Positions 22,364 through 40,641 of a DNA stretch of 64,000 nucleotides are shown in pieces. Every line of letters begins with the position of its first letter. The first letter of the stretch is position 1. The notes beneath the pieces were generated by a model. It was not told where the DNA came from, ran no database searches, and saw only the letters and a program-made list of their open reading frames with translations. The position numbers and the translations under genes were made by a program. The stretch covers positions 421,064 to 485,063 of the forward strand of contig NZ_SNYW01000007.1 in assembly GCF_004363235.1 (NCBI RefSeq), read 5' to 3'. This DNA is from Dongia mobilis (lineage in GTDB: Bacteria > Pseudomonadota > Alphaproteobacteria > Dongiales > Dongiaceae).

Positions 22364-23620
22364 ATGATCCCGGCTTTTGTCCCCCTGAAGATCCTTCGCT
22401 ACGGCTTCCGCAAGAAGTACCCGGCCGAACGCTTCATTCCGCCGGCCAAGGACCTCAAGAAGAGCTATGACGTGGTGATCATCGGCGGCGGCGGGCATGC
22501 GCTCGCCTGCGCCTATTACCTTGCCCATACCCACGGCATCACCAATGTCTGCGTGCTGGAGCGGGGCTATCTCGCCGGCGGCAACACGGCCCGCAACACG
22601 GCGATCATCCGCTCCAACTACCTGACGCCGGAAGGTGTGCGCTTCTACGAGCAGTCGCTAAAACTCTACCGCGAGTTCAGCCAGGAACTTGATTTCAACA
22701 TCCTCTATTCCGAACGCGGGCATTTCACCCTCGCCCATACCGATGCCGCCGTGCGCACCAGCCGCTGGCGCGCCGAGGTGAACAAGCAATTGGGGGTCAA
22801 CTCGGAACTGATCTATCCGGACGAGATCGCGCGGCTCTGCCCGCATCTCAACATGTCGGACAAGGTGCGCTACCCGATCATGGGGGCGCTCTATCATCCG
22901 CCGGGATCGATCGCGCGCCATGACGCTGTCGCCTGGGCCTATGCCCGCGGGGCGGCGAAACTGGGCGTCGAAATCCACCAGCAGACCCCGGTCACGAAGA
23001 TCCTGGTCGAGAACGGCACGGTGAAGGGCGTCGAGACGCCGCGCGGAACGGTCTACGCCAACCGGGTAATGCAGGCGGTCGCCGGCAATACCTCGATGGT
23101 CGCCAAGATGGCGGGTTTCCGCCTGCCGATCCGCACCATCCCGCTGCAGGCCTGCGTCAGCGTGCCGCTGAAGCCATTCCTGGACCAGATCGTCGTCTCC
23201 GGCTCGCTCCACGTCTATGTCAGCCAGAGTTCTCGCGGCGAACTGGTGATGGGCGGCTCGACCGATCCCTATGGTCTCTATTCGACCCGCTCGACGCTCG
23301 ATTTCAAGGAAGGCCTGCTCGGACACATGCTGGAATTGCTGCCCATGCTGGGCGAGGTGAAGGTCCTGCGGCAATGGGCCGGCATGACCGATATGACGCC
23401 GGATTTCAGCCCCATCATGGGTCTCACTCCGGTGAAGAACTACTACATCGACAGCGGCTGGGGCACCTGGGGCTTCAAGGCGACGCCGGTCTGCGGCATG
23501 ACCATGGCGCACACCATCGCCAACGATTCGCCGCACGACCTCATCAAGCCGTTCTATCTCGACCGCTTCGTCGAATATGCCCAGGTCGGCGAAAAGGGCG
23601 CCGCCTCGGTCGGCCATTGA
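22364..23620 (+). CDS. mgdA: N-methylglutamate dehydrogenase subunit A (sarcosine oxidase beta-like)
   Basis: A 418-residue FAD-dependent DAO-family subunit. The dinucleotide motif is VVIIGGGGHALACAYYLA (from residue 37). The sequence IARHDAVAWAYARG places His186 where heterotetrameric sarcosine oxidase beta carries covalent FMN. In the N-methylglutamate pathway this complex oxidises N-methylglutamate and releases glutamate, with the methyl group captured on tetrahydrofolate. By homology alone it could be named soxB. The mgs and gmaS genes in the same direction make MgdA the better call. It begins the four-subunit operon. Confidence 0.87.
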   Translation: MIPAFVPLKILRYGFRKKYPAERFIPPAKDLKKSYDVVIIGGGGHALACAYYLAHTHGITNVCVLERGYLAGGNTARNTAIIRSNYLTPEGVRFYEQSLKLYREFSQELDFNILYSERGHFTLAHTDAAVRTSRWRAEVNKQLGVNSELIYPDEIARLCPHLNMSDKVRYPIMGALYHPPGSIARHDAVAWAYARGAAKLGVEIHQQTPVTKILVENGTVKGVETPRGTVYANRVMQAVAGNTSMVAKMAGFRLPIRTIPLQACVSVPLKPFLDQIVVSGSLHVYVSQSSRGELVMGGSTDPYGLYSTRSTLDFKEGLLGHMLELLPMLGEVKVLRQWAGMTDMTPDFSPIMGLTPVKNYYIDSGWGTWGFKATPVCGMTMAHTIANDSPHDLIKPFYLDRFVEYAQVGEKGAASVGH

Positions 23621-23633
23621 GGAGGGAAGAACC

Positions 23634-23933
23634 ATGAAGATCATGAACTGCCCGCTCAACGGCCCCAGGAACATCAGCGAATTCGTCTGGGGCGGCGAGG
23701 TCAAGCCGATGCCGGACCCCGCCGCGACCAGCGACCAGGATTGGGCCGAATGGCTGTTCCTGGAGAACAACGAGGCCGGAATCGTGCGCGAATGGTGGTG
23801 CCACGTGCCGACCTCGTTCTGGTTCATCGCCGAGCGCAACACCGTGACCGACGAAATCCTGAAGACCTATCCGGCCGGCGACGTTTTCAAGTCGCGGGTC
23901 GATTTTGCCGCAAAGGCGGAGAAGCAGTCATGA
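23634..23933 (+). CDS. mgdB: N-methylglutamate dehydrogenase subunit B (sarcosine oxidase delta-like)
   Basis: A 99-residue SoxD-like subunit starting at ATG 23634, after GGAGGGAAGAACC. In reference sarcosine oxidases the delta subunit binds zinc through Cys6, Cys9, His59 and Cys63. Here Cys6 and the His (His57) remain, but the second Cys is Asn9 (NCPLNG) and the last is Ser61 (HVPTS), so the site looks lost or altered. A Cys just before the His (WWCH) could partly replace a ligand. The stop overlaps the start of mgdC (ATGA), indicating coupled translation. Confidence 0.87.
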   Translation: MKIMNCPLNGPRNISEFVWGGEVKPMPDPAATSDQDWAEWLFLENNEAGIVREWWCHVPTSFWFIAERNTVTDEILKTYPAGDVFKSRVDFAAKAEKQS

Positions 23934-26848
23934 GTCAGTTGAACCGCCTGCCGGCGCCCTTCGGCCGCCTCATCGACCGCGCGAAGCCGCTGACCTTCGA
24001 GTTCGAGGGCCGCGCCATCGAGGGTTTCGCCGGCGATACCATCGCCTCGGCGCTGGCTGCCAATGAACAATGGATGCTGTCGCGCTCGTTCAAGTATCAC
24101 CGCCCGCGCGGCATCCTCACCCTGGCCGGCCAGGACGCCAATACCCTGGTGCAGCTGCCCGATGAGCCGAGCTGCCTTGCCGACAGGTATCCCGCCAGGC
24201 ACGGGCTCAAGGTCATGGCCCAGAACTATTTCGGTTCGTTCGACAACGACATGGCGCGGCTGGTCGAACTGGCGCACCGCTTCCTGCCGGTCGGCTTCTA
24301 CTACAAGACCTTCAACGAGAAGAAGTCGTCCTGGAAGTTCTGGGAGCCGGTGGTGCGCGCCATGGCGGGCCTCGGCAAGATCGATCCCAAGGCCGATTTC
24401 CACCACAGCTACTATGACAAGAAGTATCTCTTCGCCGACGTGGCGGTGATCGGCGGCGGCCCGGCCGGCCTCGCTGCCGCCAGGGCTGCCGCGGATGCCG
24501 GTGCCGAGGTGATCCTGGTCGAGGAAAACGAGGCGCTCGGCGGCTCGCTCGGCTATGCGCGCTTCGATGCGAAGGGCGAACGCGGCAATCAGGTGCTGGA
24601 TGATCTCGTCAAGGGCGTAGAGGGACGTGGCAATCTCAGCGTGATGACCGGCGCCATCTGCTCCGGCTATTTCGCCGACCACTGGCTGCCGGTGATCCAG
24701 GGAAACCGCTTCTACAAGCTGCGCGCCAAATCGGTCGTCATCGCTACGGGCTCGCTGGAGCAGCCGGCGGTGTTCCGCAACAACGACCTGCCTGGCGTGA
24801 TGATGGCGAGTGCGGCGCAGCGGCTGATCCGGCTTTATGGCGTCCGGCCGGGCCGCAAGGCCGTGATCCTCGCCGCCAATGACGACGCCTATGGTGCGGC
24901 GCTCGACCTCCTGGATGCCGGCACCGAGGTCGTGGCAATCGCCGATCTGCGTGCCACGGCGTCGAACTCGCCGCTGGTGGCGGCAGTAAAGGCGCGCGGC
25001 ATCGCCATCCATCAGGGCCATGGCATCAGCGAAGCCCTTTATGCCAAGAAGAGCCATATCTCCGGTGCCGTGCTGGCGCCGGTCGCGGGCGAGGGAACTT
25101 TCGGCAGGGGCGGTACGCAGGTGGCCTGCGACCTCATCCTGATGTCGGTCGGCTTCAGCCCGGCGGGGCAGATCCTGCACCATGCCGGGGCGAAGTTCGG
25201 CTATTGCCATGCCTCCAACATGTTCCAGCCGGTAGAGACGCCGACGGGTGTCCATGCGGCAGGCTCGGTCAACAACACCTATGATCTCGATGCCGTGCTG
25301 GCCGATGGCCGCCGCGCCGGCCTCGCCGCCGCCAGGGATGCCGGCCTCGGCGTGGCCGAGATCCCGGCTGCACCCGCCGAAAAGGGCAATGTGGGGCGCA
25401 CCCATCCCTGGCCGATCTTCCCGCATGAACGCGGCTTCGATTTCGTCGATTTCGACGAGGATCTCAAATACCACGACCTCGTCAACGGCATCGCCGACGG
25501 CTATGACAATGTCGAATTGCTAAAGCGCTATTCCACCGTCGGCATGGGGCCCAGCCAGGGCAAGCATTCGGCGGTGGCGGCGGTGCGCATCGTGGCGCGC
25601 GAAACCGGCGGTGATATCGCCAGGATGAGCGTCACCACCCAGCGCCCGCCCTATGCGCCGGAGAAGTTCGGCCACCTCGCCGGGCGCGTCTTCGATCCCG
25701 AGCGGCGGACGGCGATGCATCACCGCCATCTGGAACTGGGTGCGCAGATGATGCCGGCCGGTATCTGGTGGCGGCCCGCCTATTACGGTGCCAAATCCGA
25801 GCGTAGCGCGCTCATCAATGCCGAAGTGCGCGCCGTGCGCGAGAATGTAGGCCTGATCGACGTCTCGACCCTGGGCGGTCTCGACGTGCGTGGTCCGGAT
25901 GCGGCCGAGTTCCTCAACCGCATGTATACCTTTGCCTATGTCAAGCAGCCGGTCGGCCGATCGCGCTATGTGCTGATGACCGACAATGCCGGCGTCATCA
26001 CCGATGACGGCGTCGCCTGCCGCTTCCACGACGAGCATTTCTATGTGACGGCGACCACCAGCGGCGTCGATGCGGTCTATCGCCAGATGCTGTTCTGGAA
26101 CGCGCAATGGCGCCTGGATGTCGACGTGGCCAACGTCACCGCCGCCTATGCCGGCGTGAATATCGCCGGGCCGAAATCCCGCGCCGTGCTGCAGAAGGTC
26201 TGCAGCGATATCGACCTGTCGGCGGAAAGCTTTCCTTATATGGGCGTCAGGCTGGGCACTGTCGCCGGCATTCCGGCGCGCCTCATGCGCGTCGGCTTCG
26301 TCGGCGAGCTTGGCTATGAAATCCATGTGCCGGCCGGCTATGGCGAGGCGCTGTGGGACGCCCTGATGGAGGCCGGCAAGGCGGAAGGCATCCGACCCTT
26401 CGGCGTCGAGGCGCAGCGTGTCCTGCGCCTCGAGAAGGGGCATATCATCGTCAGCCAGGATACCGACGGCCTCACCAATATCTGGGAAGCCGACATGGCC
26501 TGGGCGGTTGCTAAGTCCAAGCCCTTCTTCATCGGCGGCCGCTCGACCGAGATCATGGGCGCCAAGAAGCAGCTCAGGAAACTGGTCGGCTTCACGCTGA
26601 AAAACGATGCCGATCCCTGTCCGGAGGAATGCCATCTGGTGCTGAAGGGCGAGGAAATCGTCGGCCGCGTCACCTCGGCCGTGCGCTCGCCCAGCCTCGG
26701 CAAGGTCTTGGGGCTGGCCTATGTGCATGCCGATGACGCCGCGCCGGGCACGTCGTTCGAGATCAAGATCGACGGCGGCCGGCGCATCACCGGTATCGTC
26801 ACGAAATATCCCTTCTATGATCCCGACAACAAGCGGCAGGAGATGTGA
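23930..26848 (+). CDS. mgdC: N-methylglutamate dehydrogenase subunit C (sarcosine oxidase alpha-like)
   Basis: A 972-residue subunit. The N-terminal 95 residues form a ferredoxin-like domain without the cluster cysteines, with SFKYHRPRGI as in sarcosine oxidase alpha. Next comes an NAD/FAD-binding domain (AVIGGGPAGLAAARAAADAG, Gly175-Gly180) and a reductase-like middle. From about residue 585 on is a GcvT/aminomethyltransferase-type tetrahydrofolate domain (LGELGYEIHVPAGYGEALWD-like segment), which would capture the oxidised methyl carbon as methylene-THF. The start ATG at 23930 overlaps the mgdB stop. It is followed one base after its stop by mgdD. Confidence 0.88.
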   Translation: MSQLNRLPAPFGRLIDRAKPLTFEFEGRAIEGFAGDTIASALAANEQWMLSRSFKYHRPRGILTLAGQDANTLVQLPDEPSCLADRYPARHGLKVMAQNYFGSFDNDMARLVELAHRFLPVGFYYKTFNEKKSSWKFWEPVVRAMAGLGKIDPKADFHHSYYDKKYLFADVAVIGGGPAGLAAARAAADAGAEVILVEENEALGGSLGYARFDAKGERGNQVLDDLVKGVEGRGNLSVMTGAICSGYFADHWLPVIQGNRFYKLRAKSVVIATGSLEQPAVFRNNDLPGVMMASAAQRLIRLYGVRPGRKAVILAANDDAYGAALDLLDAGTEVVAIADLRATASNSPLVAAVKARGIAIHQGHGISEALYAKKSHISGAVLAPVAGEGTFGRGGTQVACDLILMSVGFSPAGQILHHAGAKFGYCHASNMFQPVETPTGVHAAGSVNNTYDLDAVLADGRRAGLAAARDAGLGVAEIPAAPAEKGNVGRTHPWPIFPHERGFDFVDFDEDLKYHDLVNGIADGYDNVELLKRYSTVGMGPSQGKHSAVAAVRIVARETGGDIARMSVTTQRPPYAPEKFGHLAGRVFDPERRTAMHHRHLELGAQMMPAGIWWRPAYYGAKSERSALINAEVRAVRENVGLIDVSTLGGLDVRGPDAAEFLNRMYTFAYVKQPVGRSRYVLMTDNAGVITDDGVACRFHDEHFYVTATTSGVDAVYRQMLFWNAQWRLDVDVANVTAAYAGVNIAGPKSRAVLQKVCSDIDLSAESFPYMGVRLGTVAGIPARLMRVGFVGELGYEIHVPAGYGEALWDALMEAGKAEGIRPFGVEAQRVLRLEKGHIIVSQDTDGLTNIWEADMAWAVAKSKPFFIGGRSTEIMGAKKQLRKLVGFTLKNDADPCPEECHLVLKGEEIVGRVTSAVRSPSLGKVLGLAYVHADDAAPGTSFEIKIDGGRRITGIVTKYPFYDPDNKRQEM

Positions 26849-29417: not shown

Positions 29418-29466
29418 GCGCCAGTTCGCGTTTCTGTTTCCTGTAGGTAAAAAAAGTTTCACTGTC

Positions 29467-29494: not shown

Positions 29495-29576
29495 GGGGCT
29501 GATCCGGTGGCGGGACCTCGTTCGCCCGGTATCGGTTCAGCCCGTCAACGCCTCATCTGCCCGGGAGCGGATCGTC

Positions 29577-30476
29577 ATGTGCGGCATCGTTGGCCTTTTT
29601 CTGAAAAACCCGGCCTTGCAGGCCGAACTCGGCAAGCATCTCGAGACCATGCTGATCGGCATGACCGATCGTGGTCCGGACAGCGCCGGCATCGCCGTCT
29701 ATCACAGCCCAGTGGCGGACAAGCGTTGCAAGCTGACCCTGTTCAACGCCGATACCAGCTACCCCTGGCGGGCGCTCGCCGGCGATCTGGGGACCGCGCT
29801 CAATGCCGAAATCGACGTCGAGCAGCGCGGCAACCACGTCCTGTTGACTGCGACGGCGACCGAGACCGAGGTCATTCGCTGGCTGAAGGCGAAGCATGCG
29901 GATGTGCGCATCATGGGCTACGGCAAGCTGATGGAAGTCTACAAGGACATGGGCCTGCCGGCCGAGGTGGCGAAGAAGTACGGCCTGGCCGGCATGCGGG
30001 GCAGCCACGCCATCGGCCACACCCGCATGGCGACGGAGAGTGCGGTTACCACCGAGCACTCGCACCCGTTCACGCCGGCGCCCGACATGTGCCTCGTGCA
30101 CAACGGCTCGCTTTCCAATCACAACAATCTCCGGAAATGGCTGCGCCGGCACGGTCAGGAGTTCGAGACCGACAACGATTCCGAGGTGGCGGCACGCTAT
30201 TTCGCCCATCGCCTCGCCGAGGGTGCGACCCTCAACGAGGCGCTGGAGGCCGGCCTGGCCGATCTCGATGGCTTCTTCACCTTCACCATGGGCACCAAGG
30301 ACGGCTTTGCCGTGCTGCGCGACGGCATCGCCTGCAAGCCGGCGGTCCTGGCCGAGAATGACGACTGGGTGGCAATGGCCTCCGAGTTCCGCAGCCTTGC
30401 CTATCTGCCCAATGTCGAAAAGGCCAAGATCTGGGAGCCGGCACCGGCGACCGTCTACAGCTGGAGCCTGCACTGA
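29577..30476 (+). CDS. mgsA: N-methylglutamate synthase subunit A (glutamine amidotransferase, GlxB-like)
   Basis: A 299-residue class II (Ntn) glutamine amidotransferase. The nucleophile is Cys2 after Met removal (MCGIVGLFLKN), with the family contacts DRGPDSAGIA and GHTRMATESAVT. It matches the amidotransferase domain of glutamate synthase, present here as a separate polypeptide. In N-methylglutamate synthase this subunit is thought to bind gamma-glutamylmethylamide and release methylamine for transfer to 2-oxoglutarate. The older name from rhizobia is glxB. It is the first gene of a tight three-gene set, two bases before mgsB. Confidence 0.88.
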   Translation: MCGIVGLFLKNPALQAELGKHLETMLIGMTDRGPDSAGIAVYHSPVADKRCKLTLFNADTSYPWRALAGDLGTALNAEIDVEQRGNHVLLTATATETEVIRWLKAKHADVRIMGYGKLMEVYKDMGLPAEVAKKYGLAGMRGSHAIGHTRMATESAVTTEHSHPFTPAPDMCLVHNGSLSNHNNLRKWLRRHGQEFETDNDSEVAARYFAHRLAEGATLNEALEAGLADLDGFFTFTMGTKDGFAVLRDGIACKPAVLAENDDWVAMASEFRSLAYLPNVEKAKIWEPAPATVYSWSLH

Positions 30477-30478
30477 CC

Positions 30479-31162
30479 ATGAACGCGTTTGATCTCACCA
30501 AGACGCCGCTGCGCGAGGCCAATGCCAAGCTGCAGAGCCTGCCGGCCGACACCAACGAGAAGGTCTGGCACCTTAACAACCTGCATGGCGAACATGCCTG
30601 TGCGGTCGGCCTCACCCAGCCGATCGAAGTCCATGTCAACGGCCATATCGGCTATTACTGCGCCGGCATGAACCAGAACGCGACCGTGATCATCCACGGC
30701 CAGTGCGGTGTGGGCGTGGCCGAGAACATGATGTCGGGCGAAGTCCGCGTGAAGGGCACCGCCAGCTCCGCCGCAGGTGCGACGGGGCAGGGCGGCCTCC
30801 TCGTCATTGAGGGCGACGCAGGTACCCGCTGCGGCATCTCGATGAAGGGCATCGACATCGTGGTCAAGGGATCGGTCGGCGCCATGAGTGCCTTCATGGC
30901 GCAGTCCGGCAGCCTTGTCGTCTGCGGCGATGCGGGTGCCAGCCTCGGCGATTCGATCTACGAGGCGCGCCTCTATGTCCAGGGCAAGGTCGAGAGCCTC
31001 GGCTCCGATTGCGTCGAGAAAAAGATGACGCCGCATCACCTGGCCAAGCTCGAGCGCCTGTTGAAGAAGGCCGGAATCGAGGCCGACCCCAAGAAATTCC
31101 GCCGCTTCGGTTCGAAGCGCAATCTCTACAATTTCCATGTCGACAATGTCGACGCCTATTGA
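30479..31162 (+). CDS. mgsB: N-methylglutamate synthase subunit B (GXGXG domain, GlxC-like)
   Basis: A 227-residue protein made almost entirely of the GXGXG beta-helix domain that forms the C-terminal part of glutamate synthase. Repeated Gly-rich turns (HVNGHIGYYCAGMN, VMVKGTASSAAGATGQGG-like and VVKGSVGAMSAFMA) mark the coils. This domain is structural and is expected to link the amidotransferase and FMN domains. It starts two bases after the mgsA stop and is followed by mgsC after 15 bases. Homologs are called glxC in Sinorhizobium. Confidence 0.88.
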   Translation: MNAFDLTKTPLREANAKLQSLPADTNEKVWHLNNLHGEHACAVGLTQPIEVHVNGHIGYYCAGMNQNATVIIHGQCGVGVAENMMSGEVRVKGTASSAAGATGQGGLLVIEGDAGTRCGISMKGIDIVVKGSVGAMSAFMAQSGSLVVCGDAGASLGDSIYEARLYVQGKVESLGSDCVEKKMTPHHLAKLERLLKKAGIEADPKKFRRFGSKRNLYNFHVDNVDAY

Positions 31163-31177
31163 GGAAGCGGGACGATC

Positions 31178-32509
31178 ATGAGCGACCATAGCCCCTTTCA
31201 TACCCCGCCCCGTTTCTCGGCAACCTTCGACGAGCATTCGATCGCGCAGATCCAGCGCGCGGCGGCGACCGGCATCTATGACATCCGCGGTGGCGGCGCC
31301 AAGCGCAGGATGCCGCATTTCGACGACCTGCTTTTCCTGGGTGCGTCGATCTCGCGCTATCCGCTGGAAGGCTATCGCGAGAAATGCGGCACCGATGTTG
31401 TGCTGGGCACCCGCTTTGCGAAGAAGCCGATCGAGCTCAAGATTCCGGTGACCATCGCCGGCATGAGTTTCGGTGCCCTCTCCGGCCAGGCCAAGGAGGC
31501 CTTGGGTCGCGGCGCCACGGCAATGGGCACCAGCACGACGACCGGCGACGGCGGCATGACGCCGGAAGAACGCGGCCATTCGACCAAGCTGGTCTACCAG
31601 CTGCTGCCCTCGCGCTATGGCATGAACCCGGACGATCTGCGCAAGGCCGATGCCATCGAGGTGGTGGTCGGCCAGGGTGCCAAGCCGGGCGGCGGCGGCA
31701 TGCTGCTCGGCCAGAAGATCACTGAACGCGTCGCGAAGATGCGCAACCTGCCGGTCGGTATCGACCAGCGCTCGGCCTGCCGGCACCCGGACTGGACCGG
31801 TCCCGACGACCTCGCCATCAAGATCACGGAACTGCGCGAGATCACCAATTGGGAGAAGCCGATCTATGTCAAGGTCGGCGCCACGCGACCCTATTACGAC
31901 ACGGCACTGGCGGTGAAATCGGGCGCCGATGTGGTGGTGCTGGACGGAATGCAGGGCGGCACGGCAGCGACGCAGGAAGTCTTCATCGAGCATGTCGGCA
32001 TCCCGATCCTGGCCGCCCTTCGCCCGGCGGTGCAGGCGCTGCAGGACCTCGACATGCACCGCAAGGTGCAGCTGGTCGTCTCTGGCGGCATTCGCAACGG
32101 CGCCGACGTGGCGAAATGCCTGGCGCTGGGTGCCGATGCGGTCGCCATCGGCACGGCTGCGCTGATCGCGCTCGGCGACAATGCGCCCGCCCTCGAGGAG
32201 GAATACCGCAAGATCGGCTCCACCGCGGGCGCCTATGACGATTGGCACGAGGGCCGGGATCCCGCCGGCATCACGACGCAGGATCCGGCGCTGGCGGCCC
32301 GGCTCGATCCGGTGAAGGCCGGCAAGCGGCTTGCCAATTACCTCGCCGTTCTTACCATGGAAACGCAGATCATCGCCCGTGCCTGCGGCAAGAGCCACGT
32401 GCACAATCTCGAACCGGATGATCTTGTTGCTCTGACGGTCGAGGCGGCGGCCATGGCGCGGGTGCCGCTGGCGGGAACCAGCTGGATCCCGGGTCAGGGC
32501 GGCTACTGA
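31178..32509 (+). CDS. mgsC: N-methylglutamate synthase subunit C (FMN synthase domain, GlxD-like)
   Basis: A 443-residue protein matching the FMN-binding synthase domain of glutamate synthase: PVTIAGMSFGALSGQAKEAL, the GAKPGGGGMLLGQKIT loop, DGMQGGTAAT, and SGGIRNGADVAKCLALGADAVAIGTAAL. The three Cys that bind the 3Fe-4S cluster in GltB normally follow GTAALIALG; here the segment from Asp334 to Pro362 has no cysteine, though the following GITTQDP is kept. Loss of the cluster means electrons must reach FMN by another path. Likely reaction: reductive formation of N-methylglutamate from 2-oxoglutarate and methylamine. Confidence 0.88.
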   Translation: MSDHSPFHTPPRFSATFDEHSIAQIQRAAATGIYDIRGGGAKRRMPHFDDLLFLGASISRYPLEGYREKCGTDVVLGTRFAKKPIELKIPVTIAGMSFGALSGQAKEALGRGATAMGTSTTTGDGGMTPEERGHSTKLVYQLLPSRYGMNPDDLRKADAIEVVVGQGAKPGGGGMLLGQKITERVAKMRNLPVGIDQRSACRHPDWTGPDDLAIKITELREITNWEKPIYVKVGATRPYYDTALAVKSGADVVVLDGMQGGTAATQEVFIEHVGIPILAALRPAVQALQDLDMHRKVQLVVSGGIRNGADVAKCLALGADAVAIGTAALIALGDNAPALEEEYRKIGSTAGAYDDWHEGRDPAGITTQDPALAARLDPVKAGKRLANYLAVLTMETQIIARACGKSHVHNLEPDDLVALTVEAAAMARVPLAGTSWIPGQGGY

Positions 32510-32513
32510 GATA

Positions 32514-32553
32514 CCGTCGCCGGTCGCGTAAATTGTCGCTGGTCCGGCGACGG
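32514..32553 (+). promoter_or_regulatory. 10-bp stem-loop between mgsC and gmaS
   Basis: CCGTCGCCGG (32514-32523) and CCGGCGACGG (32544-32553) are perfect complements around a 20-base loop, starting four bases after the mgsC stop. No T tract follows, so it is more likely an RNA stability or partial-termination element than a full terminator. The remaining 58 bases to gmaS are AT-richer and could hold a promoter. Confidence 0.5.
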
Positions 32554-32611
32554 CAAGAACAACAATAACGCGATTACATTGAATTGAGGCTTTACACATA
32601 GGGGGCTTTCG

Positions 32612-33919
32612 ATGGCTACCGACCTCGCCAAGGTCGCTAAGGAACGCAAGATCAAGTATTTCCTGATCTCCTACACCGACCTGTTCGGCGCGCTGCGCGC
32701 CAAGCTGGTGCCTGCTGCCGCGATCGGCGACATGCAGCGCGACGGTGCCGGCTTCGCCGGCTTCGCGACCTGGCTCGACATGACGCCGGCCCATCCGGAC
32801 CTGTTCGCACGGCCGGATCCCGACAGCCTCATCCAGTTGCCGTGGAAGCCGGAGGTGGGCTGGCTCGCCTCCGATCTCTGGATGGACGGCAAGCCGGTGG
32901 CGGATGCGCCTCGCAACCTGCTCAAGCGCAAGATCGCCGAGGCGGACAAGAAGGGGTTGCGCGCCAAGGCTGGCGTCGAATGCGAATTCTTCCTGGTGAC
33001 GCCCGATGGCAAGGCCATCGCCGATACCGCCGACACGGCCGAGAAGCCGTGTTACGACCAGCTCGCCCTGATGCGCCGCTATGACGTCATCACCGAGATC
33101 TGCGACGCCATGCAGACGCTGGGCTGGAAGCCCTACCAGAACGACCACGAGGACGCCAACGGCCAGTTCGAGATGAACTGGCATTACGACGATGTGCTGC
33201 TGACGGCCGACCGCCATGTCTTCTTCAAGTACATGACCAAGGCGATCGCCGAGAAGCATGGCCTGCGCGCCACCTTCATGCCCAAGCCGTTTACCAACCT
33301 GACCGGCAACGGGGCGCATGCGCATATCTCGTTCTGGGACAGGACCGGCAAGAAGAACCTGTTCGGCGACGCCAAGGGCGAACTCGGCCTTTCGAAGCTT
33401 GCCTATCAGGTCCTTGGCGGGATCCAGCACAACGCATCGGCGCTGTGCGCGATCTTCAACCCGACGGTCAACTCCTACAAGCGCATCAACGCGCCGCGCA
33501 CCACTTCGGGTGCCACTTGGTCGCCGAATACCATCACCTGGTCCGGCAACAACCGCACGCACATGATCCGCGTGCCCGATGCCGGCCGCTTCGAACTGCG
33601 ACTCGCCGACGGCGCAACCAACCCCTATCTGCTCCAGGCTGGCATTGTCGGCGCCGGGCTTGACGGCATTGCCAACAACCGCGATCCCGGCAAGCGCCTC
33701 GATATCAACATGTATACCGAGGGGCATACGGTGAAGGGCGCCAGGAAGCTGCCGCTCAACCTCCTCGACGCACTGCGCCTGCTCGACGGCAGCAAGGCGG
33801 TGCGCGAACAGCTCGGCGATTCCTTCGTCGATTCCTATGTGCGGATGAAGACCGGGGAGTGGAACAGTTTCACCAAGCATCTGACCGAGTGGGAACGGCA
33901 GAACACGCTGGATTGCTGA
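32612..33919 (+). CDS. gmaS: gamma-glutamylmethylamide synthetase (glutamine synthetase family)
   Basis: A 435-residue glutamine-synthetase-fold ligase. ATP-dependent joining of methylamine to the gamma-carboxyl of glutamate is expected. Catalytic-site landmarks are VECEFFLVTPDG (metal Glu), ANGQFEMNWHYDDVL, GNGAHAHISFWD (metal His), and NRTHMIRVPDAGRFELRLADG. The adenylylation-site region of GlnA is not recognisable. By sequence it could be annotated glutamine synthetase type III or glnT. Position directly after mgsABC argues strongly for GmaS, the first enzyme of the pathway. A terminator follows closely. Confidence 0.9.
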   Translation: MATDLAKVAKERKIKYFLISYTDLFGALRAKLVPAAAIGDMQRDGAGFAGFATWLDMTPAHPDLFARPDPDSLIQLPWKPEVGWLASDLWMDGKPVADAPRNLLKRKIAEADKKGLRAKAGVECEFFLVTPDGKAIADTADTAEKPCYDQLALMRRYDVITEICDAMQTLGWKPYQNDHEDANGQFEMNWHYDDVLLTADRHVFFKYMTKAIAEKHGLRATFMPKPFTNLTGNGAHAHISFWDRTGKKNLFGDAKGELGLSKLAYQVLGGIQHNASALCAIFNPTVNSYKRINAPRTTSGATWSPNTITWSGNNRTHMIRVPDAGRFELRLADGATNPYLLQAGIVGAGLDGIANNRDPGKRLDINMYTEGHTVKGARKLPLNLLDALRLLDGSKAVREQLGDSFVDSYVRMKTGEWNSFTKHLTEWERQNTLDC

Positions 33920-33925
33920 CCAGGG

Positions 33926-33962
33926 AAGGGCCGTCCGGCAGACCAGCCGGCGGCCCTTTTTT
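33926..33962 (+). terminator. strong Rho-independent terminator after gmaS
   Basis: A 13-bp stem with one bulged T (AAGGGCCG-T-CCGGC pairing GCCGGCGGCCCTT), a six-base loop and a run of six T form a textbook terminator seven bases after the gmaS stop. It ends the mgsABC-gmaS unit. Confidence 0.9.
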
Positions 33963-34082
33963 CGGGATTCTGATGTTTCCGACGGGGAAAATTAATTTAA
34001 GAGTAGTGAATGCACGGCCGTTGTGCTACAAGGGCTGAGGGTCGAACGAGGCCCGCCGAATCTGATGTAACAGTCTGATCGG

Positions 34083-34124
34083 AAAAAGAAAAACCCCGAA
34101 AAAGGGGCGCGCCGAAAAAGGCGC
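34083..34124 (+). promoter_or_regulatory. tandem mini-hairpins with identical GAAAAA loops
   Basis: Three GAAAAA elements lie in a row, two of them as hairpin loops. CCCC-GAAAAA-GGGG (34094-34107) is followed directly by GCGCC-GAAAAA-GGCGC (34109-34124); an unpaired GAAAAAGAAAAA run precedes them. They are in the 286-base gap between the gmaS terminator and the small-membrane-protein genes, about 80 bases upstream of the first start, so probably in its leader RNA. Their role is unknown. Confidence 0.5.
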
Positions 34125-34205
34125 ACCGGGAGTGGGCCCCGGGGAGGGGCAAAGTCGGATGACGCGGCCTTGCTGGCTATGGCCGCCATCTTAGGGGAGA
34201 GTGGC

Positions 34206-34484
34206 ATGCCGAGTGATATGCAGTCGCGCGTGGATTCCATGTTCCGGATGGATCGCACCTGGGCCTGGGGCTTCGTCATCGTGCTCTGGGCCGTCTTGCT
34301 GTTCGTCTATTTCTCTGTCAGCGGCTACATCGAGGACGACACGGCGCGGATCGTCCTTGGCATTGCCGGCCTTCTGGTCGGCATTTTCAACACGGCCGCC
34401 ATCGGGGCGATGATTTCGCATTACGCCCACGACAAGAACTTCATCTACGAACTCGACATCAAGCATCTGGACGCCAATCGCTAG
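34206..34484 (+). CDS. small two-helix membrane protein
   Basis: A 92-residue protein of unknown function with predicted helices at about 19-40 and 48-71, a soluble N-terminus and a charged C-terminal tail of about 20 residues (YELDIKHLDANR). The start ATG 34206 is preceded by AGGGGAGAGTGGC, a good ribosome site. It is the first of four closely spaced genes ending in an APC permease, and is followed by a 66-base gap. It may be an accessory subunit of that transporter, by position only. Confidence 0.75.
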   Translation: MPSDMQSRVDSMFRMDRTWAWGFVIVLWAVLLFVYFSVSGYIEDDTARIVLGIAGLLVGIFNTAAIGAMISHYAHDKNFIYELDIKHLDANR

Positions 34485-34550
34485 GCCGTTGCGCACGGGC
34501 AGCAAGACCCGTCGCAACCCGGTCCTGTGATCGATCAGGGGAGGATTGTT

Positions 34551-35033
34551 ATGGCGAAACGATACCAACCGCCGCAGCAGAGCGGCGTAGGACAGGCGCG
34601 CGACGCGCTGTTCATCCTGGTACTGACCTTTCTGGCGCTCTGGATCCCGCTGGAACTGGAACTTGCCGGTGCCGAGAAGGTCGATTGGCTGCCGGGGACA
34701 GTCACCGTTGCCGAGGCCCCCGAGGGCGGTTCGATCGTGCGCAGCGACAGCGGACTGGCCAAGATCACGGCCGCCGATGGTTCCGTCACCTACGAGAATC
34801 TGACCTGGGAGAATCTCGGTCAGAACGAAGCCATGCAGGCGCAATGGGAGAAGCTCGGCGTCGGCATCGAGGACGCCGCCGGTCTGGTTACCAAGCGCTA
34901 TGACTATTCCTTCTCCTGGATCGGGTTGCTTGCGACCTTGGCCGCGATCGCGGGCTATTTCATTTTCCTCGTCCGCCAGTCCGATCGTGAGTATCGCGAA
35001 GTCATCGCCGAGAAGTTCGGCAACGGTTCTTAA
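34551..35033 (+). CDS. bitopic/two-helix membrane protein with extracytoplasmic domain
   Basis: A 160-residue protein of unknown function. A hydrophobic helix at about 17-39 is followed by roughly 80 polar, acidic residues and a second helix at about 122-141, then a charged C-terminus (RQSDREYREVIAEKF). With both termini cytoplasmic, the central acidic part would face the periplasm. The start at 34551 follows GGGGAGGATTGTT. It lies between two other small membrane proteins just before the APC permease, suggesting a shared complex. Confidence 0.75.
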   Translation: MAKRYQPPQQSGVGQARDALFILVLTFLALWIPLELELAGAEKVDWLPGTVTVAEAPEGGSIVRSDSGLAKITAADGSVTYENLTWENLGQNEAMQAQWEKLGVGIEDAAGLVTKRYDYSFSWIGLLATLAAIAGYFIFLVRQSDREYREVIAEKFGNGS

Positions 35034-35050
35034 CGGGCGAGGTTCGTATC

Positions 35051-35248
35051 ATGCTTGATTTTCTGCAATTCCGCGGCCCGTGGGACGTGGTTCAGCTGGC
35101 CGCCTGGGTGGTGTCGATCGCGCTGCTGCTGTGGATGCTGTGGGACGCGATCCGGGTCAGCAAGCAGTACAGCGAAGACGTGCTGACCAGTTCCCAGGAA
35201 GGTGTCGACGAGCTTGCCTTGCAGCAAGACGCGCACAAGAAGAGCTGA
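35051..35248 (+). CDS. 65-residue single-helix membrane protein
   Basis: A very small protein with one strong helix (about 12-31, DVVQLAAWVVSIALLLWML) and a polar C-terminal half rich in Ser, Gln and Lys. It starts 17 bases after the preceding gene and ends 13 bases before the permease start. Conserved position within a tight gene row is the main reason to accept it. Function unknown; small single-helix proteins often act as transporter subunits. Confidence 0.7.
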   Translation: MLDFLQFRGPWDVVQLAAWVVSIALLLWMLWDAIRVSKQYSEDVLTSSQEGVDELALQQDAHKKS

Positions 35249-35261
35249 GGGGGAAAGCCAG

Positions 35262-36683
35262 ATGACCGATATCACCGCAAGCGGCGCCAAGGCAGATAGT
35301 GCCGGCAAGCCGTCCATCAACCTTGCCAAGGTCCTCGGCCCGATCCACGTCTGGGCGCTGGGCGTCGGCATCGTTCTGGTCGGCGAATTTATGGGCTGGA
35401 ACCTGTCGATCGAGAAAGGCGGTGCGCTCGGCTCTATCATCGCCTGCTGGATCGTCGGGTTGCTCTATACCTGCGTCGCCATGATCGATTCGGAAGTCAC
35501 CTCGACGGTGGCCGCCGCTGGCGGCCAGTACACCCAGGCCAAGCATACCACCGGCCCGCTGATGGCCTTTAATGTTGGCCTCTATCTGGTGCTGGCCTAT
35601 ACCATGCTGGAAGCCGCCGACATCTTCGTGTTCGGCGATCTGGTCCGAATCGCTGCAGAGAACCTCGGGGCGGAACCCGGCTCCGTCGATGCGCGTCCGT
35701 TCGTGCTGCTGGCCGTCTCGGTCCTCGCCTGGCTCAACTATCGCGGCGTGTTCATGGCGCTCAGCGTCAACTTCCTGATCACGGCCGTCGCCTTCGCGTC
35801 GATCGTCATCCTGTTCGTGGCCTATCAGTTCGGCATCGGCACCGGGCAGGACCTGCAGCACCAGGAACTCGGCATGGGCTCGCTGCCCTATGGCTGGATG
35901 GGCGTCCTCGCCGCTTTCCAGTTTGCGATCTGGTACTATCTCGGCATCGAGGGCACCTGCCAGGCAGCCGAGGAAGTGCGCTCCTGCGGTCGTTCCCTGC
36001 CGCTCGGTACCATGACCGGCATGATCACGCTGCTTATCGCGGCGGCATTGACCTGGTATGTGTGCTCGGGCGTCATGCCTTGGGAGTATCTGGGCCTTAC
36101 GCTGGCGCCGCTCTATGACGCTTCACTGATGACCGGCAACACGGTGCTGATCGTCCTGCTGTGGACTGGTACGGTCTTCTCCGCCCTTGCCTCGGCCAAT
36201 GGCTGCATCAACGATGCCGCCCGCGCCTGGTTCTCGATGGGGCGCGACCGTTACCTGCCGCAGTTCTTCGCGGCCGTGCATCCGAAGTACCGGACACCCT
36301 ATCGTGCAATCCTGTTCCTGATCCCGATTGCCGCGTCGTTCGGCTTCCTGCAGCTGCTTGGGCCCGTCATCACCTTCTCGATCTTGTCGGGGCTCCTCGG
36401 CTATACCTTCATGCCGATCAACATGTTCCGCTTCCGCAGCAAGTGGCCGCTGGACACGATCAAGCGCGGCTATATCCACCCCTTCCATCCGCTGCCGTCG
36501 ATCGTGCTGATCACCTTGTGCGCGGCCACCTATGTCGCCGTCTATCTCGGTTTCGGCACGCAGCTCCTGGCCATGATGGTGTTCTATGTCGTGGCTTCGG
36601 TCTGGTTCGTGCTGTTCCGCTACAAGTTTGTCCGTCGCGGCGACCAGTTCACCATGGCATGGCCGCGACCGAGGGGCTATTGA
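35262..36683 (+). CDS. APC superfamily amine/amino-acid permease
   Basis: A 473-residue permease with about twelve helices. The N-terminal region (LGPIHVWALGVGIVLVGEFMGWNLSIEKGG) resembles the ethanolamine-transporter (EAT) branch, where GxxxGWNxxxxxGG lies in helix 1, and SGVMPWEYLGL and FSALASANGCINDAARAWFSMGRDRYLP are typical APC loops. The start ATG 35262 follows GAGGGGGAAAGCC. It forms a unit with three small membrane proteins and follows the methylamine genes, so uptake of methylamine or a related amine is inferred. A stem-loop lies after it. Confidence 0.88.
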   Translation: MTDITASGAKADSAGKPSINLAKVLGPIHVWALGVGIVLVGEFMGWNLSIEKGGALGSIIACWIVGLLYTCVAMIDSEVTSTVAAAGGQYTQAKHTTGPLMAFNVGLYLVLAYTMLEAADIFVFGDLVRIAAENLGAEPGSVDARPFVLLAVSVLAWLNYRGVFMALSVNFLITAVAFASIVILFVAYQFGIGTGQDLQHQELGMGSLPYGWMGVLAAFQFAIWYYLGIEGTCQAAEEVRSCGRSLPLGTMTGMITLLIAAALTWYVCSGVMPWEYLGLTLAPLYDASLMTGNTVLIVLLWTGTVFSALASANGCINDAARAWFSMGRDRYLPQFFAAVHPKYRTPYRAILFLIPIAASFGFLQLLGPVITFSILSGLLGYTFMPINMFRFRSKWPLDTIKRGYIHPFHPLPSIVLITLCAATYVAVYLGFGTQLLAMMVFYVVASVWFVLFRYKFVRRGDQFTMAWPRPRGY

Positions 36684-36718
36684 TAGTACGATATCACCTG
36701 TCTTTCAGGGTATTCCTC

Positions 36719-36744
36719 GGGCCGGCGGGTCACACCGCCGGCCC
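36719..36744 (+). terminator. 10-bp GC stem-loop after the APC permease
   Basis: GGGCCGGCGG and CCGCCGGCCC pair perfectly around a six-base loop, 35 bases after the permease stop. Without a T tract it may attenuate rather than stop transcription into the next gene, which starts 24 bases later. Confidence 0.5.
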
Positions 36745-36767
36745 ATTGCTGCCGTGACGCCAACGGA

Positions 36768-37451
36768 ATGATTGCCAATTCCTTCGCCCTTACACTAGCC
36801 GCGCTGGTGGCGCTCGCACTGACGGGCCTTATCCTGATCTATCGCCGTGAGAGCAGGCAGCGACGCCAGCTACGCGCCGCCTTGTTCGAGCCCGCCTACC
36901 CCTTGTTCCAGTCCTATCGCGTCGAACAGGCCGGCCAGGATTACCCATCGTTGCGGGGGCGATATCGCGAGCGGGACTTCCATATAGATCTGGTGGTCGA
37001 CACGCTGACATTTCGCAAGATCCCGGTCCTGTGGCTGCGTGTCTCGCTGTTGCAGCCGCTGCCGGGGCTGGCGATGACGGATCTTCTGGTCAGAGCGCAG
37101 AACAACGAGTTCTACGCGCCAGCCAACGACCTGCCCTACCACCTGCCGAGCGCATCGCACTGGCCGCCGGGCCTCAATGTGAAGACCGAGGATCCAGCCC
37201 GCGCGCCATCCCGGGACTTGCTGGATGCGCATATGGACTTCTTCGCCTCCCCCGAAGCCAAGGAAGTACTGCTGACGCCAAAGGGCGTGCGCCTTGTTCG
37301 GATGCTGGGCCAGGGCAAGCGGGCGGATTACATGGTGCTGCGGATCGCCGATTTCCCGGACGCCGCTCTTGATGCAACCACGCTCGCGGACATCATGGAT
37401 AGATGCATCGCCCTGGCGGCGGATACAGCACGGGAGTTGGAGCAGAGATGA
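36768..37451 (+). CDS. membrane-anchored protein of unknown function
   Basis: A 227-residue protein I do not recognise. One N-terminal helix (5-25, ALTLAALVALALTGLILIY) is followed by Arg-rich residues and a soluble domain of about 190 residues containing YPSLRGRYRERDFHIDLVVDTLTFRKIPVLW, which has a beta-rich look, and a helical C-terminus. It is probably anchored with the domain in the cytoplasm. Its stop overlaps the next gene's start (ATGA), so the two are coupled. Location between the permease and Amt genes suggests, but does not prove, a role in transport or its regulation. Confidence 0.75.
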   Translation: MIANSFALTLAALVALALTGLILIYRRESRQRRQLRAALFEPAYPLFQSYRVEQAGQDYPSLRGRYRERDFHIDLVVDTLTFRKIPVLWLRVSLLQPLPGLAMTDLLVRAQNNEFYAPANDLPYHLPSASHWPPGLNVKTEDPARAPSRDLLDAHMDFFASPEAKEVLLTPKGVRLVRMLGQGKRADYMVLRIADFPDAALDATTLADIMDRCIALAADTARELEQR

Positions 37452-37762
37452 CACAGGAAAAGCCACTGAAGCCGCCACTGCATCCGCTGTTGGTCCTCGT
37501 CATTGCCGTCCTGCTGCCCGGCATGGGGCAGATTGCCAACGGACAGGCGACGCGCGGATTGCTGTTTGCCTTCACCACCGTGGCGCTCGGCTATGTCACC
37601 GCGAAATATGCCGGGCCGGACGTGTCGCTGGTCGGTCGTTATGCCGGCGGTTTCTTCATTTATGCCGTCGCCATCATGGACGCCTATCGCTGGGCCAAGG
37701 TGCGCTTCGAGATTTTTCGCCATGCCCATCCGACGGCCGGCCGTGTCGGCAATTCCACATGA
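37448..37762 (+). CDS. small membrane protein with PGMGQxxNGQ motif
   Basis: A 104-residue protein with two or three helices. The segment LLPGMGQIANGQATRGLLF resembles the PGxGQxxNGQxxKG loop of TM2-like and related small membrane families. It is translationally coupled to the preceding unknown gene by a four-base overlap. Function unknown. Confidence 0.75.
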   Translation: MTQEKPLKPPLHPLLVLVIAVLLPGMGQIANGQATRGLLFAFTTVALGYVTAKYAGPDVSLVGRYAGGFFIYAVAIMDAYRWAKVRFEIFRHAHPTAGRVGNST

Positions 37763-38178
37763 TCGCTCGATTTCGTGCGACATCCCTGTTCGAATCAAGC
37801 AAAGCATGCTAGGAATAGTTATTAACTGACAGGCAACACAGGCAACAGAGTGCCTGTTTGCAGTGCGGCATTATTGCTGCGTCGCAAGGAAACCTTGCAG
37901 GCGCGGCAACGCTGGTTCTGGCCAGGTGGCGGCCGGCATGGACGTGCAGATGGCCGGGCACTTTCCCGGTCCGACAATTACCAAGAAAAAGATTGGTCGG
38001 CAGAGCCGACAGGATCACCAGGAGGAAGTTGAAGGCCCGGGCAGGACCGGGCCGAGCATTGGCATTGTCGGGGGCGGATCGCGCCGAGGACGCGAGCGGG
38101 ACGTCTCTTTCCCTGGTGACATGATTGCACAGTCAAATGGTGCCCTTGCGGGTACGACCTTGGGGAGGGGAGTCTACC
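37763..38178 (+). promoter_or_regulatory. 416-base gene-free leader upstream of amt
   Basis: No convincing gene lies here. It contains a 7-bp stem-loop ACAGGCA-ACAGAG-TGCCTGT (37838-37857) with a short TTT after it; a weak sigma-54-like element GG-N10-GC (GG at 37867-37868, GC at 37879-37880); and a perfect 7-bp stem GGCCCGG-GCAGGA-CCGGGCC (38034-38053). A strong purine ribosome site (GGGGAGGGG) precedes the amt ATG at 38179. The long structured leader suggests regulated expression of the ammonium transporter, but the sigma-54 match is poor. Confidence 0.45.
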
Positions 38179-39582
38179 ATGGACAATGAAGTGACCGCTC
38201 TGACGATCATCTTCACCGAGTTCTATTACTGGGTGACGGTGGTCTTCATGTTCCTGATTCACGTCGGCTTCTGCATGTACGAGGTCGGCGCCTCGCGGCG
38301 CAAGAACCACATGCATACGTTGATGAAGAACACGATGGTGATTCCGCTTGTCACCGTCACGTTCTTCTTCTTTGGCTGGTGGATCTATTTTGCTTTCCCC
38401 AACGGACCGGGAATCATCGGACCGCTCCTTTCGGCCCCCTGGGCGGAGCCCTGGAGCGAACTGATGGGCGCCCATATGGGTGGCGCGCCGGCCGATACGG
38501 CAACCTTCACCGCCGAAGACACGGCCTACTGGGCGCGCATCAACGGCGTCTTCTGGGCGGCCTTCCTGCTGTTCTCCTGGACTGCAGCCTCGATCATCTC
38601 GGGTTCGGTGATCGAGCGTATCCGCTCCAGCGCCTTCTGGGTGGTTGCGGTGGTGATCGGGTCCTTTGCCTGGATCATCGACGCGGCCTGGGGTTGGCAT
38701 CCGGATGGCTGGATGATCCAGGTCCTCGGCTATCATGACGCCTATGCCTCGGGCGTGATCCATGCCATCGCTGGCGGTGCGGCCCTTGCCGTGCTCATCC
38801 ACCTCGGGCCGCGCATTGGCAAGTTTGCACCGGACGGAACTCCGCGCAACATCGTGCCGCACAACCCTTGGCTGATCACGGTCGGCCTGTTCCTGATCTA
38901 TACCGGCTTCTGGGGCTTCTATGTCGCCTGCAACATCCCGATCATCGACGTGCAGGATGGCGACGGAGTGTTCTTCTCGGCGACGAACATCTATCTGACG
39001 CCGACTACACTCTCCGCCATCACGCTCAACTTCCTGATGTCGCTGGCGGGCGGTCTCATGGGCGGTTACCTCATTTCGCGGGGTGACGCGTTCTGGACCT
39101 ATTCGGCGGGTCTGTGCGGTGTCATCGGCGCCTCTGCCGGCAACGACCTCTACAACCCGTTGCAGGCCATGGTGATCGGCGCGATCGTGCCGATGATCTG
39201 CTACAAGCTGCACTTCTGGGTCGAGCGCCGCTTCAAGATCGACGATGCGGTGGGCGCCGTGGCGGTGCATGGCTATGGCGGCTTCCTCGGCGTCGTGGTC
39301 GCCGGCTTCATGCTGTGGGGCTACCCTGCTTCGCAGAAGTATGACGCCATCATCACGCCGTGGGGCAATTTCGCCGGTGCCGTGATCATGTTCTTCGTTC
39401 TCGGCTTCCTGCCGGCCTATATCGTCGCCGGCATCCTGAAGGCGTTTAACAAGCTGCGTGTGCCGCGCGAGATCGAGCTGGTAGGCCTTGACCTATCGGA
39501 ATATGCGGCGCGCTACGAAGACGAGGATCAGATGTTGGCGGCGGAAATTGCCGAGGCTCGCGCCGCCGGCACTCTGCGCTGA
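38179..39582 (+). CDS. amt: ammonium/methylammonium transporter, Amt family
   Basis: A 467-residue channel with eleven predicted helices. The pore His pair is present: VIHAIAGG and AVHGYGGFLG, corresponding to His168 and His318 of E. coli AmtB, and the Asp near the first (YHDAYASG) matches the structural and recruitment residue Asp160. It lacks the signal peptide of typical AmtB, starting MDNEVTALTIIFTEFYYW, and has a hydrophilic C-terminal tail of about 45 residues. Methylammonium is a known Amt substrate, fitting the pathway upstream. A small membrane gene follows, 23 bases on; no glnK is present. Confidence 0.93.
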   Translation: MDNEVTALTIIFTEFYYWVTVVFMFLIHVGFCMYEVGASRRKNHMHTLMKNTMVIPLVTVTFFFFGWWIYFAFPNGPGIIGPLLSAPWAEPWSELMGAHMGGAPADTATFTAEDTAYWARINGVFWAAFLLFSWTAASIISGSVIERIRSSAFWVVAVVIGSFAWIIDAAWGWHPDGWMIQVLGYHDAYASGVIHAIAGGAALAVLIHLGPRIGKFAPDGTPRNIVPHNPWLITVGLFLIYTGFWGFYVACNIPIIDVQDGDGVFFSATNIYLTPTTLSAITLNFLMSLAGGLMGGYLISRGDAFWTYSAGLCGVIGASAGNDLYNPLQAMVIGAIVPMICYKLHFWVERRFKIDDAVGAVAVHGYGGFLGVVVAGFMLWGYPASQKYDAIITPWGNFAGAVIMFFVLGFLPAYIVAGILKAFNKLRVPREIELVGLDLSEYAARYEDEDQMLAAEIAEARAAGTLR

Positions 39583-39605
39583 CCAATCGATAGGAGAACG
39601 GAAAC

Positions 39606-39842
39606 ATGTCGACAGGTTCATTCGAGAACTGGAACGGGAACGTTCTTGATATCGGTCCGCTGTATCCCTTTGTCGGGACCGAGATGGTCTGGTTCATCAT
39701 CTGTGTCGCGTTCTGGCTTGCCTGGCACGTCCTGCAGTGGCGCATGGAGGAGGCAAACTACAACGATGACATGGAAGTCCTGAAGAAGGGCGACAACATG
39801 GAGCGAGCCCTCAAGGGAGAAAAGGTCCTGCGTTCCATGTAG
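39606..39842 (+). CDS. 78-residue membrane protein, Amt partner
   Basis: A small protein with one helix (about 26-44, EMVWFIICVAFWLAWHVLQW) and a charged cytoplasmic-type tail rich in Glu, Asp and Lys. It begins 23 bases after amt with AGGAGA just upstream and is followed by a terminator, so it is in the amt transcript. No family is recognised. An auxiliary or regulatory subunit is a reasonable guess. Confidence 0.72.
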   Translation: MSTGSFENWNGNVLDIGPLYPFVGTEMVWFIICVAFWLAWHVLQWRMEEANYNDDMEVLKKGDNMERALKGEKVLRSM

Positions 39843-39866
39843 CATCTGTTGCCGGCAGGCAAGGTG

Positions 39867-39898
39867 AAGCGGCGGCCATTGGCCGCCGCTTCCGTTTT
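39867..39898. terminator. terminator between amt unit and fkbM
   Basis: AAGCGGCGGCC and GGCCGCCGCTT form a perfect 11-bp stem with a three-base loop ATT, followed by CCGTTTT. It lies between convergent genes and could serve both strands. Confidence 0.8.
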
Positions 39899-39919
39899 CA
39901 TCCGCCTTCCGCCCTTGCT

Positions 39920-40552
39920 TCAGGAGAGGCGATAGATGGACGTGTAGTGGAGGTGCGAGACGAGGCGATAGCCGAGCGGGCGCAAAAAGCGGAAAATGGG
40001 GCTCTCCGTGACCCTCTCCAGATCGAGGTCGAGATCCTCGACGGCCAGAAGGAAGGGATGGAAGCGCGCCCAGTCGTTAGAGCGCAGCACGTCGAGATCG
40101 GCGCCCTCGCAATCGATGTTCATGAAGCCGACCTCCGTGCTGGCGGGTACCGATTGCGCCAGAACGGAGGCCAGCGTTCGACGTTCGACCTCGATGTCGC
40201 CGAGATGCCGCTTGCGCGAATTGCTGCGGAAGCGCGCGAAACTGACAGGGTCGATCGTGTTCATCGACCGGTCGTTGAAGAGGTGAAGCGTTACCCGGCC
40301 GGGGAGGGTGCCGATCGCCAATTGCTGCGTGCTATCCCGCGGTCGCACCTGCCGGAAAGCGGCGATCGCCTCCGGATCCGGGTCAATGGCGATTCCCCGC
40401 CAGCCCGCCAGATAGAGTGCGTAGGTGTTCGAATAGTCGACCGGCTGGTGCGCGCCGACATCGACGTAGAAGCCGCCCGGCCGCCCGGCGAGGTATTTGA
40501 GGATCAGCCGATCCTCGCCGAAGGACGAGTAACTCGCGATGGGAAAGGTCAT
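39920..40552 (-). CDS. FkbM family methyltransferase
   Basis: A 210-residue SAM-dependent methyltransferase. The SAM-binding motif is YVDVGAHQPVDYSNTYAL with the following GIAIDPDPEA, and GFMNIDCEGADLDVLRSNDW is the FkbM signature containing the Asp-Cys-Glu-Gly turn. Such enzymes methylate hydroxyls of polysaccharides or other secondary products. It is divergent from the LOG-like gene across 89 bases and converges with the amt unit. The acceptor is unknown. Confidence 0.9.
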   Translation of the reverse strand: MTFPIASYSSFGEDRLILKYLAGRPGGFYVDVGAHQPVDYSNTYALYLAGWRGIAIDPDPEAIAAFRQVRPRDSTQQLAIGTLPGRVTLHLFNDRSMNTIDPVSFARFRSNSRKRHLGDIEVERRTLASVLAQSVPASTEVGFMNIDCEGADLDVLRSNDWARFHPFLLAVEDLDLDLERVTESPIFRFLRPLGYRLVSHLHYTSIYRLS

Positions 40553-40641
40553 GCCCGCCTCCCTGCTTGGCCCGCCATTGCAAATCCCATTCCCGGCGGC
40601 TAGATGAGAATTCGATCGAATCGCCCCGGAAGGTAACCGAG

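Follow-up and report, generated by a model that had tools for sequence, protein, structure and literature searches.

Does the APC permease encoded between the methylamine genes and amtB of Dongia mobilis act together with dedicated small membrane proteins, and what might such an assembly carry? The locus lies in a window of 64,000 nucleotides, the whole stretch of DNA analyzed here, in which a first-pass annotation had described three proteins of 92, 160, and 65 residues, with one or two helices each, in a tight row directly before an EAT-like permease and just after the methylamine genes.

A block of six genes between gmaS and amtB

The block comprises six genes, here called A to F, all on the forward strand, with gmaS on one side and amtB on the other, in a candidate N-methylglutamate (NMG) cluster. 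Gene A (34206-34484) encodes 92 aa with two transmembrane (TM) segments by hydropathy and a conserved C-terminal motif, HYxEDKxFIYGLDIxHLD; B (34551-35033) encodes 160 aa arranged as a TM segment, an outer segment, and a second TM segment; and C (35051-35248) encodes 65 aa, with one TM segment and a tail carrying an SSxEG motif. They are followed by D (35262-36683), the APC permease of 473 aa, by E (36768-37451), a protein of 227 aa with one N-terminal TM helix and a domain of predicted TtfA-like fold, and by F (37448-37762), a small multi-span membrane protein of 104 aa whose start overlaps the stop of E. The boundaries of A, B, C, and D were checked by translation, and the coordinates leave gaps of 66 bases between A and B, 17 between B and C, and 13 between C and D. 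Coordinates and hydropathy thus agree with the sizes, helices, and tight spacing first described for the three small proteins. The placement directly after the methylamine genes also stands, with GmaS ending at 33919, 286 bases before A. The first reading had recognized no family for A, B, and C and, in the window, none of A, B, C, E, and F exceeds a Pfam or NCBIfam cut-off, F giving just weak matches to DUF5683 and DUF6677 below it. That small partners accompany the permease was borne out, with their number corrected from three to five, as E and F belong to the same block. The region from 29000 to 41000 holds no Rfam family, and a promoter search found no sigma-70-like promoter in 33850-39950.

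Upstream of A, on the same strand, are mgsABC and gmaS of the NMG route (29577..33919), GmaS being identified by TIGR03105 (667 bits, cut-off 469.6) and MgsABC by gene order and similarity to annotated copies. Further upstream, tblastn with the Paracoccus aminophilus pAMI6 genes located sarcosine-oxidase-like beta, delta, and alpha genes on the forward strand (22457..26842, the boundaries being those of the matches), with 44%, 36%, and 35% identity, respectively. These candidate mgdABC genes could encode N-methylglutamate dehydrogenase; the pAMI6 queries gave no match for gamma/MgdD by these genes in the window. Trimethylamine genes were rejected for the window, as tmm, dmmA, dmmB, dmmD, and a TmoP-like query found no match, and the matches of tdm and dmmC were confined to the sarcosine-oxidase-like region at 25.7 to 26.8 kb (26 to 30% identity). 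Just 5' of mgsA, an XRE-type regulator (28779-29372) is 53% identical to the methylamine-island regulator of P. aminophilus. An open frame of 1,141 aa on the minus strand (30455-33880), opposite mgsBC-gmaS, is probably a by-product of high G+C.

On the other side, the ammonium transporter gene amtB (38179..39582, forward strand, start taken from the open-reading-frame list; Ammonium_transp, 194.8 bits) is located 3' of F. Directly 3' of amtB is a 78-aa one-helix protein, G (39606-39842). Relatives of G were found in 13 of 61 near genomes, and four of these (G011, G023, G032, and G050) lack B, so that G is not tied to the A-F block but accompanies amtB or occurs on its own; it is possibly a small partner of an ammonium transporter.

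Conservation and distribution of the block

For relatives of D, one genome per species was scanned, giving 357, of which the best 80 were kept as loci; together with 12 plasmid loci they make up a set of 92, many from related species. The order A-B-C-D-E-F on one strand was found in 87 of these 92 D-containing loci by profile searches, with profiles built mostly from the loci searched, which favors detection, though not order or strand. Such an arrangement is more than chance. Four of the exceptions lie by contig ends, which cut the 3' side (L072 and L074) or the 5' side (L078 and L093), and the remaining locus (L085) has no E or F detectable by profile search. C is present in 92 of 92 loci and A in 90, the other two being cut by contig ends.

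In a sample of 385 alphaproteobacterial genomes, B was found in six and D (E-value ≤1e-60) in the same six, five of them from the window's own genus, while the sixth (G135) has a B with one stop. The E protein appeared in the same six genomes, plus two weak partial matches (E-value ca. 3e-4). Among 61 near relatives, B was present in 15. The recurrence of the small genes with the permease, which the first-pass annotation had proposed as a check, is therefore a conserved one, and inheritance of partner genes with the permease, as expected if A to D form a heteromeric APC transporter, is seen in both the co-occurrence of B with D and the gene order. The block A-F is a co-inherited unit.

The distances among the proteins were then compared over the 40 loci that also hold MgsC, where pairs are not independent. 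D correlated with C at 0.85, B at 0.82, F at 0.73, E at 0.66, and A at 0.62 (0.616), against 0.39 with MgsC; in a wider locus set the values were lower (D-B 0.79, D-C 0.75, and D-A 0.50). D thus tracks B and C better than it tracks MgsC, which supports a B-C-D core. No such support comes from the distance correlations for a specific tie of A or E to D, since the best correlate of A over the 40 loci is E (0.845), its value with MgsC (0.665) is slightly above that with D, and E correlates with MgsC (0.633) nearly as well as with D.

It could be argued that the small genes are merely carried along with a mobile permease operon, as the module is patchy, being found, besides the six genomes of 385, in two of 200 genomes from the family of a Paraburkholderia genome (this center genome being one of the two), and D occurs in 22 plasmid records. 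However, the order is kept while the flanking genes change, and B and C follow D better than MgsC does, so we regard this as very improbable. It is also quite improbable, in our view, that AmtB is the methylamine importer and that the block has another role, for example, in sensing (as a transceptor) or homeostasis. The gene amtB is found 3' of F in the window and on the other side of the block, 5' of A, in several relatives, and in the gmas-mgsABC-amt operon of Pseudomonas sp. C5pp amt is named a methylamine transporter (PMC8292978), but just a few of the 80 loci have amtB close to the block, whereas A-F stays whole.

In pSymB of Sinorhizobium meliloti Ak57, C and D are joined in a single open frame of 524 aa (L099, 8824-10395). 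This fusion is absent from Sinorhizobium K101, S. americanum, and RAC02, and Ak57 also has an altered B frame; the fusion may thus be a peculiarity of the strain or of the sequencing and was not used as proof of contact.

The permease

D exceeds the Pfam cut-offs of AA_permease_2 (103.4 bits, cut-off 27) and AA_permease (101 bits, cut-off 24.6), which places it in the APC superfamily. Its best NCBIfam match is the EAT model TIGR00908, with 174.1 bits against a cut-off of 381.75. "EAT-like", as first annotated, is thus a fitting label, while "EAT" itself would not be justified, and an assignment as ethanolamine permease was rejected on this score. D shares GxFxGWN in TM1 with the EAT family, unlike which it falls short of the family cut-off, and EAT-like relatives, which read ISGHFSGWN at the TM1 site, have 26 to 28% identity to it. 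The PDB sequence matches (E-value ca. 1e-14 to 1e-15) comprise vacuolar CAT4, an engineered xCT, and two further chains that we take to be GkApcT, presumably from the GkApcT-MgtS entries 5oqt and 6f34; the GkApcT chains are among the best matches of D (E-value ca. 2e-14).

At the position of the TM1 G-T-G of the GkApcT chain, D has V-G followed by Glu. This Glu is present in 83 of 83 relatives counted, a count that excludes D of the window, which also has it, and two D proteins fused to a universal stress protein. A TM1 without G-T-G and with an invariant Glu would point to a substrate without a carboxylate, such as a small amine, as far as a motif can indicate.

A universal stress protein gene is found in 31 of the 80 loci, in several between D and E, and in two Methyloceanibacter genomes the domain of such a universal stress protein is fused to the C terminus of D, which then has 611 aa (L079, 5986-7818; L091, 5998-7830). 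D thus accepts extra parts.

TmoP is an APC-type permease of methylated-amine gene islands, reportedly described by Zhu in 2014 as a TMAO permease. The S. meliloti permease beside tdm was taken for TmoP from its position, so that our comparison is with this protein and not with the tested TmoP itself. Labels in PMC5520151 and PMC4543880 give a further basis for this naming. The S. meliloti permease has no significant BLASTP similarity to D (E-value 0.21), and no A-C genes are listed before it in what is an incomplete annotation. In the trimethylamine islands (pAMI6 and pSymB), a separate, dissimilar APC permease sits by tdm or tmm, for which reason D was rejected as the TMAO permease; the presence of this other permease by the trimethylamine genes would leave D for the methylamine step.

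Association with the NMG route

MgsC with at least 69% identity was found in 45 of the 49 D-bearing genomes searched, which were taken from 50 of the best 80 loci. The four without a close MgsC are G074 (42%), G096 (41%), G099 (53%, cut by a contig end), and G102 (54%). An association with the NMG route, as an importer for it would show, is thus found, but the reverse is not true: in the class sample, MgsC (E-value ≤1e-150) is present in 50 of the 385 genomes, and 45 of these 50 lack B, so the module is dispensable for the pathway. The connection to methylamine first drawn from adjacency holds for the set as a whole, even when the genes are not adjacent. In P. aminophilus pAMI6, the block is divergent from mgsABC-gmaS; in a S. 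meliloti pSymB, it faces mgsABC-glnT; and in Aminobacter pAA01, it is ca. 17 kb from the mgsABC genes. Paracoccus sp. MA has no annotated NMG genes within 8 kb of the block, and one locus (L067) has a glutamine-synthetase-like gene before A, yet its genome lacks a close MgsC.

Among the best 80 of the 357 relatives, purU is near the block in 5 loci and a soxB-like gene in 12. Pseudomonas sp. C5pp has a purU-folD-mgdABCD operon (PMC8292978), by analogy with which these neighbors of the block may be mgd genes. Plasmid copies of Aminobacter and Pseudohalocynthiibacter (L100, L102, and L112) lie near homogentisate-pathway genes.

Alternatively, the substrate of D could be some other member of this metabolism (N-methylglutamate, sarcosine, gamma-glutamylmethylamide, or a larger amine), or D could export an intermediate. 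The sarcosine-oxidase-like genes found with the soxB query could act on sarcosine and not just on NMG, some copies have homogentisate genes nearby, and most PDB relatives of the APC type carry amino acids. Against this, D lacks the G-T-G of GkApcT in TM1, and the frequency of MgsC in D-bearing genomes points to methylamine; we therefore consider another substrate rather unlikely and methylammonium the preferred one.

A metagenome-assembled genome titled Candidatus Methylopumilus universalis carries mgsABC-like genes and the A-F block (L084, 357-8405), at odds with the statement in PMC6794327 that pelagic forms (Methylophilaceae) encode no N-methylglutamate pathway. Among methylotrophs, the module is present in P. 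aminophilus JCM 7686 (L098) and in strain EHg5 of Methyloversatilis universalis (L049). In M. universalis growing on methylamine, NMG genes and "co-clustered conserved proteins" are up 6- to 10-fold (PMC5023235). The abstract of that paper names urea/ammonium transporter homologues and amino-acid permeases among the responding functions; its table does not include D, and the q-values given there for most NMG genes are ca. 0.65 to 0.75. In the open PMC literature, we recognized no description of the A-F module, and our search of the open literature found no biochemical or genetic data on D and its partners.

The small partner proteins

Scans of the family members gave weak, scattered matches to Pfam for A, B, and E and to NCBIfam for A and B, the curated cut-offs being compared for the window members of A and B. 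The most widespread Pfam match was FA_desaturase for A (18 of 57 members, best E-value 0.0022) and Ac76 for B (3 of 71 members), and E members had no widespread Pfam match. Matches of B to BCCT (2 of 71 members in Pfam and 3 of 71 in NCBIfam) were weak and taken as chance. The alignments of A, B, and E contain invariant positions.

The predicted model of B (pLDDT 87.9, pTM 0.55) consists of a helix, an outer segment, and a helix, and had no match of Z ≥5 among solved structures. That of E (pLDDT 93.5, pTM 0.89) has one helix and a domain, and VIA-align, a tool that cautions against reading function from a common fold and notes that Z can be inflated by long helices, gave TtfA with Z 11.9 over 155 residues, followed by three translocon chains (11.7, 10.8, and 9.7), which we take to be CCDC47, and by unrelated rows from 7.1 downward; type III secretion chaperones come next for this fold, with Z of ca. 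7. TtfA, a partner of MmpL3, and the presumed CCDC47 of the translocon, which E may resemble in its predicted fold, are single-helix proteins with multi-span partners. E shows no sequence relation to them (a profile of 72 E proteins found no PDB chain at E-values up to 10) and no significant Foldseek match (none in the PDB at an E-value of 0.001 or better), and their partners are of other families.

The likeness of E to TtfA and the translocon chains, together with the type III secretion chaperones, could also suggest that A, B, C, E, and F help to assemble D or control its quality rather than being lasting subunits, with E as a membrane-protein chaperone. A shared fold shows no function, though, and it is B and C that D tracks most closely, as lasting partners would; we consider this unlikely and keep B and C as partners that stay with D. 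TtfA has been pulled down with the transporter MmpL3, their direct contact being debated (PMC7458404), and the likeness of the E model to it fits a partner protein but does not prove one.

A candidate methylammonium importer with dedicated partners

Import of methylammonium with B and C as lasting partners is the most likely reading of the locus. D would be a secondary carrier that brings methylammonium to the cytoplasm for GmaS and MgsABC, and its TM1, without G-T-G and with the invariant Glu nearby, would fit a small amine that has no carboxylate. The membrane proteins B and C would remain with D as its partners, and A and the E-F pair would add further parts to the complex. E, a single-helix protein whose domain is probably cytoplasmic, might steady, assemble, or gate the permease. 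Ammonium set free during growth on methylamine competes at Amt channels and closes them via GlnK, and a carrier apart from Amt would thus make sense. Whether the whole inherited unit A-F forms a dedicated multi-protein methylammonium importer complex of the NMG route, with D as the transport subunit, seems to us evenly poised. Only tentatively can a more specific version be put forward, namely, an energy-driven methylammonium importer of methylotrophs that is an obligate APC complex of up to six proteins, with a B-C-D core and, around it, a second layer of A and the E-F pair; E, a bacterial protein of TtfA/CCDC47-like fold, would have F as its small membrane partner, and the whole would be built for one permease.

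That APC permeases normally work alone, as first assumed, does not hold without qualification. In animals, LAT-type carriers form pairs with SLC3 heavy chains, and GkApcT, a bacterial APC permease, was crystallized with the single-TM MgtS of Escherichia coli packed on TM5 (PMC5803215). The SLC7 light chain with its SLC3 heavy chain resembles the putative A-F complex as an APC carrier with an obligate membrane partner (PMC5803215); however, that partner is one large glycoprotein, whereas those of A-F would be several small proteins with no large outer domain. GkApcT-MgtS is similar in joining an APC permease to a one-helix protein, but MgtS came from the E. coli host, the G-T-G of GkApcT is not shared by D, and the passages of PMC5803215 on this pair report no conserved gene set.

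Many soil and marine bacteria use methylamine as a source of carbon and nitrogen, and how it is taken up is described as still unclear for pelagic Methylophilaceae strains that lack known oxidation genes (PMC6794327). The conserved block of six genes, linked as it is to the NMG route, offers a direct genetic target for methylamine uptake. Should the small proteins prove necessary, the heteromeric APC transporters of animals would have bacterial counterparts with different partners, and a function could be assigned to five unnamed protein families.
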